Origin: Methanoregulaceae archaeon
Lineage (GTDB): Archaea; Halobacteriota; Methanomicrobia; Methanomicrobiales; Methanospirillaceae
DNA: 40,494 nt
Assembly (NCBI GenBank): GCA_018432765.1
Contig: JAHDSI010000022.1
Coordinates: forward strand, 1 to 40,494
Direction of reading: 5' to 3'
In this document: positions 7,332-30,537 of the stretch, piece by piece
Position numbering within the stretch: the first letter of the stretch is position 1
Layout of the letters: every line of letters begins with the position of its first letter
The notes under the pieces: generated by a model
The model's database searches: none
Told to the model about the DNA's origin: nothing
The model's input: the letters and a program-made list of their open reading frames with translations, nothing else
Program-made: the position numbers and the translations under genes

Positions 7332-7548
7332 TTTTCTCTTTTGGAGAGATTAAATGCCTCCTCGCTGTTTTGTGCGGGTAGAAGAAACGAAGTGGTTACC
7401 CGCGATCGCAATCCAGTCACTCACAACCGCCGCCGGGGCGTCCTCGCATAACTCATACCCAATTGCTCAAATTTTGACTGTGAATCAGAAGGTGATCGCA
7501 GGTGTCACCCCGGGTCGAGGGCGGAGGCCTCGCGGTATTTTTTCGGGC

Positions 7549-7655
7549 GGCGGCATGCATCGCATGTGGTATGTAAGGGTGGGGAAACTCGCACAACAGG
7601 TATCGGATTCATCAATCTTATCCATCCATGATAGCGAAGAGCCGATTTAATGAAT
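7549..7655 (-). pseudogene. Relic fragment related to the 14.3-kb ORF
   Basis: Reading the minus strand gives NRLFAIMDG followed by a stop, and after a frame change MDKIDESDTCCASFPTLTYHMRC. This parallels IRLFATMEKIGEP...ASLHTPTC in the 90-aa frame at 14305-14577. At DNA level, 7557-7645 and 14381-14465 share GCATCGCATGTGG, ATCAATCTT/ACCAATCTT and GCGAAGAGCCG/GCAAAGAGCCG. A small ATGG duplication explains the frameshift. I read it as a decayed copy of the same gene family. The rest of 7332-7781 holds no convincing gene; a 98-codon plus-strand frame there is rejected. Confidence 0.5.
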
Positions 7656-9192: not shown

Positions 9193-9528
9193 TCAGATGA
9201 CCCCCATCAGCACAAGGCCGTATACGAGGTTTGCAGCCATGAGCACCACCAGCAGCCTGCCTGCCTGGATATGAGCCGTTCGGAGGGACGGATTCGGTTT
9301 TTTCCCTCTCTCACGTGCGATCCCCAGGATGATGATGAGCAGTACGAGGAAGATTATCACGATTCCGACCATTGCATGGGCAAGGATATAGGAGGGAGCT
9401 CCGCCCAGGAATATCGCAAAGAACGGGATTAAAAAGGCGATTATCGTAAGTACTCCCCCAATAGTGGCAATGGTTTTATGGTACCTGTACCACCCGGTCA
9501 CTGATCTTTTCCACTGGATGAGCCCCAC
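9193..9528 (-). CDS. Four-helix membrane domain, continuation after an in-frame TAG
   Basis: The frame given starts at the first possible codon (GTG, 9528) and encodes 111 aa, but the same frame is open up to the TAG at 9661-9663. That upstream part encodes LWYYHAVLAVLGLVFFLVAVG, a further membrane helix with no start codon before it. The full domain has four helices, with histidines in YYHAV, YRYHKT and ILAHAM. That layout is like cytochrome-b561-type or related heme membrane proteins; heme binding is only a guess. It is in the same frame as the exported protein upstream and is best read as its C-terminal half, separated by one stop codon. Confidence 0.6.
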   Translation of the reverse strand: MGLIQWKRSVTGWYRYHKTIATIGGVLTIIAFLIPFFAIFLGGAPSYILAHAMVGIVIIFLVLLIIILGIARERGKKPNPSLRTAHIQAGRLLVVLMAANLVYGLVLMGVI

Positions 9529-9660
9529 CGCGACGAGGAAAAATACCAGGCCAAGGACGGCCAGGACGGCATGGTAATACCAGAGGGGAATTTCTGACGG
9601 CTGGACGGCCGATTGCGCCGCCTCCGCTGTCGTGCCAGGAACCGCCAGACGCCTGGAGAT

Positions 9661-9987
9661 CTAGCCGCCCTGGTTGCATGATGCCGTCACGGCCAGCGTA
9701 TCACCTGGATCCACCGATACGAGGTAGCGATACGTGAATGTGCCACTCGCAGGCTGCCGTGAATACACTCTCTCTTCTGCCACCTGGCCGTCCTTTTGTA
9801 TCGTTACCAGGTAGACGAAATGACTGCCTGGGTTATCCACGTCGTGTGTGACGGTAACCGTCAGTTCGCCGGCACCCGGATCATATGAAAGCTTCATGTC
9901 GGCAGGCGGATGTGCCATGACGGTACATGGGACGAGCGCCATGAGAACTACCAGCACCGCGAGGGTTTCGAAGTTACGATCCTTCAT
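9661..9987 (-). CDS. Exported beta-domain protein, truncated by in-frame TAG
   Basis: 108 aa. The ATG at 9987 follows a GAGGAG Shine-Dalgarno. Residues 1-25 form a signal peptide (LAVLVVLMALVPCTVMA before HPPADM). The rest is a beta-rich domain (MKLSYDPGAGELTVTVTHDV, GSHFVYLVTIQKDG, SGTFTYRYLVSVDPGDTLAVTASCNQGG), similar in style to Ig-like or desulfoferrodoxin-like external domains. The frame ends at TAG (9661-9663) right after NQGG, where the beta sheet would be expected to continue. Without that stop the frame would run on through four membrane helices to 9193, giving a 264-aa protein. An in-frame upstream extension to 10083 lacks a good start context. Confidence 0.65.
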   Translation of the reverse strand: MKDRNFETLAVLVVLMALVPCTVMAHPPADMKLSYDPGAGELTVTVTHDVDNPGSHFVYLVTIQKDGQVAEERVYSRQPASGTFTYRYLVSVDPGDTLAVTASCNQGG

Positions 9988-10216
9988 TTGCCCTTTCTCC
10001 TCGGAATTGTCCGATGCTGTGTAGTACCATGCCCCGGAGGATAATTGTTTCCCAGATTCCGGCCGCAGGATACAAATTGGCATTCAAACCCGCTGTTTTC
10101 CAGAACAGTGATGAAATCCCGATCAGGTGTCCCTTTCGCGCGTCCGGAACAGGTGCATCCACAGAAGGTGGAATAACAGCCATATATCCCGATCCGAAGA
10201 CCAACCATTCAGTACA

Positions 10217-10306: not shown

Positions 10307-10446
10307 AGCAGCAGATACCGTCAGCCCGCAAGAGACCTCTTTTCAGGGTGTTGCCTCACTGGTGAACATCAACCAAGATCTCCTTCTGAAGAGCCTGTGA
10401 ACATTTGAAAATTCCGTATCTGAAATAAAAAATTGGTGTGACACAC

Positions 10447-10974
10447 ATGAAATCAAGAGATATTGCCATTGTAGGCATACTCCTTGCAGTTGGAGCAATC
10501 CTTCGCTATTTCCTGGCCATGCTCCATACACCGCTCACCCCGAACATGGTGATAGCGTTCTACTGTCTTGCGATCATCCTCATCCAGCCGAAGGTCTACG
10601 AGGCGCTCGGGATCGGCATAGTGGCAGGAATTCTCTCGATGCTCATATCGAGCTCGATATTCCCCCCGGCAAACCTGATAAGCGAGCCTATCGGCGCCCT
10701 TGTCTGCTTCGCCATCTATGGAGCCCTGAAGAGCAGGTCCAAAATCGCTCCGACGGCTGCCACATTCCTGACGACGCTTGCCAGCGGATTTTCGTTTGCT
10801 GCGGTCGCCATAGTCTTCGTGGGCGCGACGATTCTCTCCCAGTACGGGGGAGACCTGATGACCTTTGTCCTGGTCTTCGTCCCGATCGTCGTGATAACAG
10901 CCGTCTTTAACGCTGTAATCGTGCAGGTACTCTACTTCCCGGCCAGCAGGGTCCTGATGCGGGGACAGGAATGA
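10447..10974 (+). CDS. ECF transporter substrate-binding (S) component
   Basis: A 175-aa integral membrane protein with five to six helices (IAIVGILLAVGAILRYFL, VIAFYCLAIILIQ, LGIGIVAGILSMLIS, the ALVCFAIYGAL region, TTLASGFSFAAVAIVFVG, VLVFVPIVVITAVFNAVIV). It belongs to the S-component type of energy-coupling-factor importers, which bind a vitamin, metal or small metabolite. The N-terminal LLAVGAILRYFL...TPNMVIAFYC pattern recalls the TrpP-like group, so tryptophan or a related compound is a candidate, held weakly. The ATG at 10447 has GGTG 9 nt upstream; a GTG at 10438 is less likely. It overlaps the ATPase gene (ATGA) and opens the operon. Confidence 0.78.
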   Translation: MKSRDIAIVGILLAVGAILRYFLAMLHTPLTPNMVIAFYCLAIILIQPKVYEALGIGIVAGILSMLISSSIFPPANLISEPIGALVCFAIYGALKSRSKIAPTAATFLTTLASGFSFAAVAIVFVGATILSQYGGDLMTFVLVFVPIVVITAVFNAVIVQVLYFPASRVLMRGQE

Positions 10975-12401
10975 TCACGCTCGAGTCTGTCAGCTATGCA
11001 TATCCGCGAACCGGCAGGGATGCCATATCGGATATCACGCTCTCCCTGAAGAGAGGTGAGTGTGTCCTGGTCTCCGGCCGTTCGGGATCCGGCAAGACGA
11101 CGCTCTGCCTGGCGGCGGCTGGCATTCTCGAGCACGAGTACGGGGGACGAAAATCGGGCAGCGTGGCGGTGAACGGAAAGGATGTCGGTGATTACCGTGA
11201 CCTCTCCGATCTCTCAACCTCGGTAGGGATCCTCTTCGACGACCCCGATTCCCAGCTCATATTCACAACGGTGGAGGAGGAGATCCTCTCCGCCCTTGAA
11301 CGGCGCGGTTTTTCGCCTGAAGAGGTCGAAGAGCGCCTCTCCCGGGTTCTTGCCGTCACCGGGCTCGAAGGGTTGAAGGACCGTCCGCCCCATGCCCTGT
11401 CAGGTGGGCAGAAACAGCGTGTGGTCCTCGCCACGACCCTCGCCCTTGGCACCGATATCCTCATCCTCGACGAGCCGACATCGGAACTTGATGAAAAGGG
11501 AACGGACAGCATCGTCTCCCTCTTAAAGGAACTGAAGGCACAGGGCAAGGCCATACTCCTTGTCGAACAGAAATATCCCCGGCTTGCCGCGGTGGTCGAC
11601 AGGTACGTAATCCTGGAGGACGGCAAGATCCGGACCGAAGGCACGGCCGATCATGTTCTCTCCGACGAGACTGCAAAGAAGACGCTGATACCCGATTTCT
11701 CAGGGATAAGGGGAGAGAATGTCACGGATAGAGGCAGGCCGCCAATCATCCGTACCGAGGGGCTGTCGTTTCGGTACGGAGACGACGAGGCCCTCTCGGG
11801 CATCGACCTGGAGATCGCTCCCGGCGAGTTCGTAGCGATCGTCGGTGAGAACGGTTCGGGAAAGACGACACTCATCAAGCATTTCATAGGCCTTCTCCGC
11901 CCGGAAAAAGGAACGGTACGAGTCGATGGAAAAGATGCCGCAAAGGCTCCCGTCGCAGAGCTCGCACATTCAGTCGGCCTGGTATTCCAGAACCCGGATC
12001 ACATGTTCTTCGCCGACTCGGTCTTTGACGAGGTGGCATTCGGTGTTGACAACTTAAAGATCCCGGACCGTGAGAGAGCCGTAATCGATGCACTCTCCAC
12101 CGTACGCCTCGAGCACCTCCGGGATCTCTATCCCCGCTGGCTCTCCCGCGGTGAACGTCAGCGCCTGGCAATCGGCTGCATACTGGCCATGAAACCGCCA
12201 GTGCTCATCCTTGACGAACCGACCACCGGTCTTGACGGTGAAGAGTCACGGGAGATCATTGAGCTGATAAAACGACTCCAGGGGGACGGGCACACGATCA
12301 TCATGGTCACGCACAGCCGCGAGATCGCGGAGGAATGTGCTGACAGGATTGTTCGCATGGATGCAGGAAAGATCGTATCCGATTCAGCAGCGGGGGCCTG
12401 A
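10971..12401 (+). CDS. ECF transporter fused double ATPase (EcfA1A2)
   Basis: A 476-aa protein with two complete ABC ATPase domains, the energising part of an ECF importer. Domain 1 (about 1-235) has Walker A GRSGSGKTT, signature LSGGQKQR and Walker B ILILDEPTSELD. Domain 2 (about 260-476) has GENGSGKTT, LSRGERQR (a G-to-R variant of LSGGE) and VLILDEPTTGLD. In many organisms EcfA1 and EcfA2 are separate; here they are fused. Both sites look catalytically complete. Its start overlaps the S-component stop by 4 bp, and the T-component follows after 5 bp, giving an S-AA-T operon. Confidence 0.9.
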   Translation: MITLESVSYAYPRTGRDAISDITLSLKRGECVLVSGRSGSGKTTLCLAAAGILEHEYGGRKSGSVAVNGKDVGDYRDLSDLSTSVGILFDDPDSQLIFTTVEEEILSALERRGFSPEEVEERLSRVLAVTGLEGLKDRPPHALSGGQKQRVVLATTLALGTDILILDEPTSELDEKGTDSIVSLLKELKAQGKAILLVEQKYPRLAAVVDRYVILEDGKIRTEGTADHVLSDETAKKTLIPDFSGIRGENVTDRGRPPIIRTEGLSFRYGDDEALSGIDLEIAPGEFVAIVGENGSGKTTLIKHFIGLLRPEKGTVRVDGKDAAKAPVAELAHSVGLVFQNPDHMFFADSVFDEVAFGVDNLKIPDRERAVIDALSTVRLEHLRDLYPRWLSRGERQRLAIGCILAMKPPVLILDEPTTGLDGEESREIIELIKRLQGDGHTIIMVTHSREIAEECADRIVRMDAGKIVSDSAAGA

Positions 12402-12406
12402 CATAC

Positions 12407-13204
12407 ATGGGCGAGATCCTCCAGTACATCCCGGGGAACGGGCTGTTCCACCGCCTCCACCCTGCAACGAAGATCCTCTTCATCATCGTGGTGAGCATGG
12501 CGACGATCCTCACGTCCTCCATACCGCTCCTCGTCGCCTATCTTCTCCTGATCCTCCTGCTGGCACTGTCTGGCCGTCTTTTGAAACCCGTGCTCCAGCA
12601 GATGCTGCTCGTCGGGCTCATGAGTATCGTCCTCTATCTCGTCACGATCCTGACTGTTCCGAGGGGAACCGTGATCGGTTACCTTGTTCCCGGCTTCGTG
12701 CCGTACATCGGGGGAAGCATCCCTGTTACCGTCGAAGCCCTTATCGTCGGGACCGTTCTTACGCTGCGTTTCGCCATACTCATAACCGCCTTCCAGCTCT
12801 TCGTCATCTCGACCCAGCCTCGCGATCTCGTGCATACCATGGAACGTGCACGAATTCCTGCTGATTATACCCTGATGTTCATCATCGCCCTGCGATTCAT
12901 CCCGACACTCCAGATCGAGGGGAAGCGTATCCACGAGGCCCAGCTGGCCCGGGGATACCACCCGGGCGAGGGGTTTATCGGGAGAATAAAGAGTGTCGCG
13001 CCCGTCATGGTCCCCCTGGTCTCCAACTCGATCGGAAGGGCAACCCTGCTTGGCCTGACCATCGACATCCGGGGGTACCGATCGAGAACGCGAACGCGCC
13101 TTCGTGAACGCACGCTCGGGATTGCGGACAGGATAGCAATACCGGTCATGGTCGTCATGGGAATCGCTTTTTCATATGCGTTCTTCTTCACTCATTGGGT
13201 ATAG
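12407..13204 (+). CDS. ecfT: ECF transporter transmembrane (T) component
   Basis: A 265-aa membrane protein of the EcfT/CbiQ type that couples the ATPases to the S component. Membrane helices occur around TKILFIIVVSMATILTSS, LLVAYLLLILLLALSG, MLLVGLMSIVLYLVTILT and ALIVGTVLTLRFAILITAFQLF, plus a final one near IPVMVVMGIAFSYAFFF. The coupling region carries the ARG signature (EAQLARGYHPG) and a second motif, DIRGY, as expected for EcfT. It is the last gene of the S-AA-T operon, so the three genes make a dedicated (group I) ECF importer. Confidence 0.9.
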   Translation: MGEILQYIPGNGLFHRLHPATKILFIIVVSMATILTSSIPLLVAYLLLILLLALSGRLLKPVLQQMLLVGLMSIVLYLVTILTVPRGTVIGYLVPGFVPYIGGSIPVTVEALIVGTVLTLRFAILITAFQLFVISTQPRDLVHTMERARIPADYTLMFIIALRFIPTLQIEGKRIHEAQLARGYHPGEGFIGRIKSVAPVMVPLVSNSIGRATLLGLTIDIRGYRSRTRTRLRERTLGIADRIAIPVMVVMGIAFSYAFFFTHWV

Positions 13205-30000: not shown

Positions 30001-30438
30001 TCAGCCTTCATCGCCATTCGGGTACGCATTCAGGATAACCAGCAGCTCTCCTCCACCCCGCAGGTACGAGATGAGCTCACGCGGCAGGGTGAGTGCTGCA
30101 TGGTCTGATGATATCCCGATCGTCCGGCCGCAGGTAAAGGTACTCGTTCTCCAGACCAGGTCTGTCTCGTGGTCAAGGGTCATCGACGCGCTCCCCTTCG
30201 ACGTTACCCTGACCGTGATATCTCCAGCGACGAGAAGAGTGACAAGGGTTGCGCTCCCGCATCCCAGGGCTGCCCGGAACCCGTCGGAGAGATCACCGGC
30301 TCCTTTATCTGCACCGACTCCGATGACGCAGTCGCCCCTCGGTGAGAGGTCTGTCTCGGTAGTGACCTGGAACGTGGACCGGTGCGTGCCCCGTATGTTG
30401 TGATGGCCCCTGCAACAAATTCTCTCCTCGATATTCAT
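30001..30438 (-). CDS. DUF371 family protein
   Basis: 145 aa. The N-terminus carries CRGHHNIRGTHRSTFQVT, the conserved DUF371 core, followed by GVGADKGAGDLSDGF and a C-terminal ALTLPRELISYLRGGGELLVIL. DUF371 is an archaeal family of unknown function with a beta-rich fold and conserved histidines. It is divergent from the zinc-ribbon gene at 30538; no operon partner is evident on its own strand. Confidence 0.87.
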   Translation of the reverse strand: MNIEERICCRGHHNIRGTHRSTFQVTTETDLSPRGDCVIGVGADKGAGDLSDGFRAALGCGSATLVTLLVAGDITVRVTSKGSASMTLDHETDLVWRTSTFTCGRTIGISSDHAALTLPRELISYLRGGGELLVILNAYPNGDEG

Positions 30439-30537
30439 CCCCTCGATCTTTCCCCCATGACATCAAGGACTTTTGCAGGAGCTGTCAGTACTACTTATGA
30501 GCTCGCGGGGAGTAATGTTTGGGAGAGGACGTGCGCA

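Follow-up and report, generated by a model that had tools for sequence, protein, structure and literature searches.

The minus strand of the window, by which we mean the whole stretch of 40,494 nucleotides analysed, carries a frame in which a coding region for an apparently exported membrane protein is cut by one in-frame TAG. An earlier reading, made from the sequence alone, had left two explanations standing, a recent nonsense change or read-through of UAG, and the question is which of these, or which other cause, accounts for the interruption. We consider it likely that a single nonsense change of recent date has broken one gene here, an ordinary loss of function that involves no unusual genetic code.

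The interrupted frame and its parts

Translation of 9987-9193 (-), which reads M...CNQGG*ISRR...MGVI*, confirmed that a 264-codon frame running from the ATG at 9987 to a TGA at 9193 is split by a single internal TAG, codon 109 (9661-9663). The sister genome, Methanolinea sp. SDB, has the same frame uninterrupted and 91% identical over its whole length, and the window frame is therefore not a chance frame; the probability of 155 stop-free codons in a row, equal codon use being assumed, is about 6e-4. The parts of the disrupted gene, with the structural ones taken from the structure that AlphaFold2 modelled for the intact SDB protein (mean pLDDT 83), are as follows:

9193..9987, minus strand: disrupted gene, made up of an exported beta domain resembling SoxZ and superoxide reductase, a linker and a four-helix cytochrome b561-like domain; 264 codons, TAG being codon 109
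9913..9987, minus strand: probable signal peptide, codons 1-25; the A25-H26 junction is invariant in 20 of 20 full-length homologues
9664..9912, minus strand: beta domain retained in the truncated product, codons 26-108, with conserved H26, H48, H56 and C104-N-x-x-G108
9661..9663, minus strand: in-frame TAG (codon 109), where Methanolinea sp. SDB has TCG (Ser) and 16 of the 20 other full-length homologues have Ser
9640..9663, minus strand: last beta strand, predicted model residues 109-115, lost through truncation
9196..9585, minus strand: four-helix b561-like membrane domain, helices 135-159, 166-195, 199-227 and 233-260, without a start codon of its own ahead of helix 1

The architecture proposed in the sequence-only reading was upheld. 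The signal peptide is suggested by a hydrophobic N-terminus followed by the invariant A-H junction, and the model predicts seven beta strands in the exported part, the last of them at 109-115, then the linker and the four C-terminal membrane helices, which are modelled with good confidence. According to this model the TAG falls on the first residue of the last beta strand, so that this strand and all four helices, predicted to lie 3' of it, would be the part of the protein that is lost. Each helix contains one histidine that is invariant in the alignment of full-length homologues (H139, H170, H204 and H239). The statement that the second half has no ATG, GTG or TTG before its first helix also holds, since the earliest such codon 3' of the TAG is the GTG at 9528 (codon 154), which falls within modelled helix 1 (residues 135-159).

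Two other accounts of the frame were rejected. The frame can mechanically reach an ATG at 10083; conservation with SDB begins at 9987, and a one-base indel relative to SDB lies just 5' of that position. A frameshift was discarded as the cause of the interruption, given that the alignment of the gene with SDB contains no indels.

The stop position in homologues and the age of the break

Alignment with close homologues established which residue occupies the TAG position and that the two halves exist elsewhere as one intact gene. The SDB orthologue (LKUF01000169.1; the labels L029 and G186 denote this same record) is one open frame of 264 residues, aligned end to end and flanked by the same neighbours over about 4.2 kb, but it has TCG, a serine codon, where the window gene has TAG. 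Among the 20 more distant full-length homologues, column 109 is occupied by serine 16 times and by threonine, glutamate, phenylalanine and alanine once each, and stand-alone relatives of the first half also have mostly serine there; neither TAG nor any other stop was found at this column in the homologues aligned. The TCG of SDB, together with the serine in 16 of the 20, indicates that the TAG is the derived state, produced by a one-base change at a position conserved as serine.

The region downstream of the TAG shows no decay. In the comparison with SDB, dN/dS is similar on both sides, 0.38 before the TAG and 0.29 after it, the latter value showing purifying selection on the second half, and the 471 coding bases 3' of the TAG contain no indels, against 12 in 712 aligned noncoding flank bases. 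Had the second half been neutral on the window branch since the split, two to four indels would be expected, with a Poisson probability of none of about 0.02-0.12, a rough estimate that rests on few events. The lack of indels and the dN/dS of 0.29 imply that any break is recent, so that the lesion is either young or not real; such data fit a young nonsense allele, an assembly error and a read-through codon alike. When amino-acid differences were polarised with homologues of 28-43% identity, a comparison of little power, no excess damage was seen after the TAG relative to before it.

The mechanism that we favour can be stated simply. At codon 109, a single C-to-A change would have made TAG out of TCG, the codon of a conserved serine; translation would end there, and the product would be a secreted, unanchored fragment of 108 residues, or about 83 once the signal is cleaved, without the last beta strand and without the entire b561-like membrane domain. 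With these two parts gone, the truncated protein has most likely lost its function. Having no usable start, the downstream half would be a relic too young to have decayed.

A homologue from another genus (L049, G137:C37:45-719) carries an independent stop, a TAA lying in frame within the linker that joins the beta domain to the helices, and no obvious start follows that TAA either; this copy lies at a contig end and may thus reflect an assembly edge. The gene looks dispensable, and both the TAA of this contig-end copy and the intactness of the other clear window genes compared with SDB fit such a view.

Read-through, gene splitting and consensus error as rival explanations

If UAG were read through by means of pyrrolysine or an amber-suppressor tRNA, some full-length protein would be made, in agreement with the frame 3' of the TAG continuing under purifying selection, and since the assembly, which is 86% complete, lacks several tRNA isotypes, a suppressor tRNA could be missing from it as well. 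The searches that bear on this explanation nonetheless render it very improbable. PylS (TIGR02367) exceeded its curated cut-off in none of 232 Methanomicrobiales genomes, the source genome included, as the doubt voiced in the sequence-only reading about pyrrolysine in this order had anticipated; one of 14 control genomes passed the same cut-off, presumably Methanosarcina acetivorans as the sole pyrrolysine user among them, and weak sub-threshold matches, present in every genome, fit general aminoacyl-tRNA synthetase similarity. PylB (TIGR03910) was likewise absent above its curated cut-off from the 108 genomes of the family. No CUA anticodon occurs among 28 tRNA loci, obtained by an Rfam search and then ARAGORN on each locus, a count that is to be read with the missing isotypes and the atypical nature of tRNA-Pyl in mind; a single locus missed by ARAGORN shows, by eye, CAT within its loop and appears to bear an intron.

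Codon usage and the site itself point the same way. TAG is the stop of 7 of 40 window genes that we chose (17.5%), the share being about 4-5% for Methanosarcina and, for Ca. Methanomethylophilus alvus, 1.6% (PMC4153887), although TAG shares of 11-30% are possible in pyrrolysine users with regulated cassettes. No homologue has UAG in the TAG column, and the sister has a plain serine codon at what is a conserved serine position, not a site of pyrrolysine or lysine type. The window gene resembles pyrrolysine-decoded genes of Methanosarcinaceae and Methanomassiliicoccales in that a conserved frame continues past an in-frame UAG, but differs from them in that its UAG stands at a serine site, TAG serves as an ordinary stop, and pylS and pylB are undetected at their cut-offs. 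Partial read-through, for example by a suppressor tRNA lying outside the incomplete assembly, would yield a soluble beta domain together with a membrane-anchored form, an outcome to which we give very little credence. Of the two explanations left standing earlier, then, the nonsense change gains from the intact one-gene homologues, the serine codon and the lack of other decay, and the same serine, the ordinary use of TAG and the negative PylS, PylB and tRNA searches weigh against read-through. What might have been a case of UAG recoding in Methanomicrobiales gives way to an ordinary explanation.

The TAG might instead mark a deliberate split or functional truncation, with the beta domain alone as the product, as in stand-alone relatives, and both beta-domain proteins and four-helix proteins do occur on their own elsewhere in the family. 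The former, however, retain the last strand and most of them end in a hydrophobic, anchor-like C-terminal tail, and the latter have their own start, whereas in the window gene the TAG removes the last strand and leaves the second half without a start ahead of helix 1. The truncated product fits neither stand-alone arrangement, and a functional split is accordingly most improbable.

The main rival to a nonsense allele is that, in a fragmented metagenome-assembled genome (MAG), the TAG stems from an error of consensus or assembly or from a minority strain allele, in which case the living population would mostly have the intact gene. Since the window is a MAG consensus, a base error would look identical to a nonsense allele, and the MAG consists of 236 contigs at 86.1% completeness; the undecayed sequence 3' of the TAG and the isolation of the site are also what such an error would give. 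On the other hand, the contig is clean otherwise: by our reading of a gene-by-gene comparison, no other clear protein gene is interrupted among the roughly 35 of the window for which SDB has a counterpart, several interrupted rows that represent antisense or overlapping shadow frames being left uncounted, as was 30004-30495 (-). Moreover, the change is a single-base substitution and not an indel, and such substitutions are not the kind of error that assembly makes most often, which we count against this explanation. We regard it as unlikely, if clearly less so than read-through or a functional split, and we infer that the nonsense change is real in the population.

The intact fusion family and the neighbourhood of the gene

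The intact protein looks like a beta domain of SoxZ/superoxide-reductase type fused to a cytochrome b561-like module. For the membrane part, all 21 full-length members match cytochrome b561 (PF03188) at E <= 0.1, with a best value of 6.3e-9, and the b561 structure 4o6y was retrieved both by profile search (E 4e-5) and by fold search (TM 0.51 to the target). The family shares with cytochrome b561 a four-helix module with an invariant histidine in each of the four helices; these correspond to paired heme-ligand histidines, heme binding being putative. It differs in having four helices only and in being fused to an exported beta domain, and the SDB protein scores 16.8 bits against PF03188, below the gathering score of 23.

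For the beta domain, the top Foldseek matches were SoxZ (PF08770) and superoxide reductase/desulfoferrodoxin (PF01880), with probability 1.00, a best E-value of 0.002, thus none below 0.001, and TM 0.5-0.6; weak Pfam matches to PF08770 and to PF01880 were each found in 6 of 27 members. A Pfam search with the N-terminal piece alone found nothing, and a profile search of the domain against PDB sequences gave chance-level matches only, fold comparison being more informative. Besides the fold, the likeness includes conserved histidines and the C-N-x-x-G motif. A superoxide reductase proper was rejected as the identity of the domain: the centre of that enzyme is Fe(His)4(Cys) (PMC3116461), but the family conserves at most three histidines (26, 48 and 56) with C104, and none after the cysteine, where the fourth equatorial ligand would stand.

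The fusion family matched no dedicated Pfam or NCBIfam model, and whole or partial matches to it occur in more than half of the family's genomes. The most likely role of the intact protein is in redox reactions on the external side of the membrane, the b561-like part serving to pass electrons through. In hydrogenotrophic methanogens such a fusion could carry electrons across the membrane, and it merits the attention of biochemists.

Other features of the window were noted in passing. An Rfam search of the window gave no match, including within a dispersed intergenic repeat at 7340-7646 that has 53 matches of 71-95% identity in the source genome, the self match excluded; about 28 partial copies, frequently sited at the ends of contigs, were seen in the sister MAG, and this repeat probably fragments both assemblies. 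The host is an uncultured methanogen of Methanolinea type. The divergent neighbouring operon (10438-13204) encodes a TrpP-like membrane protein, a double ABC ATPase and a CbiQ-type permease and is, by this composition, an ECF-type transporter.
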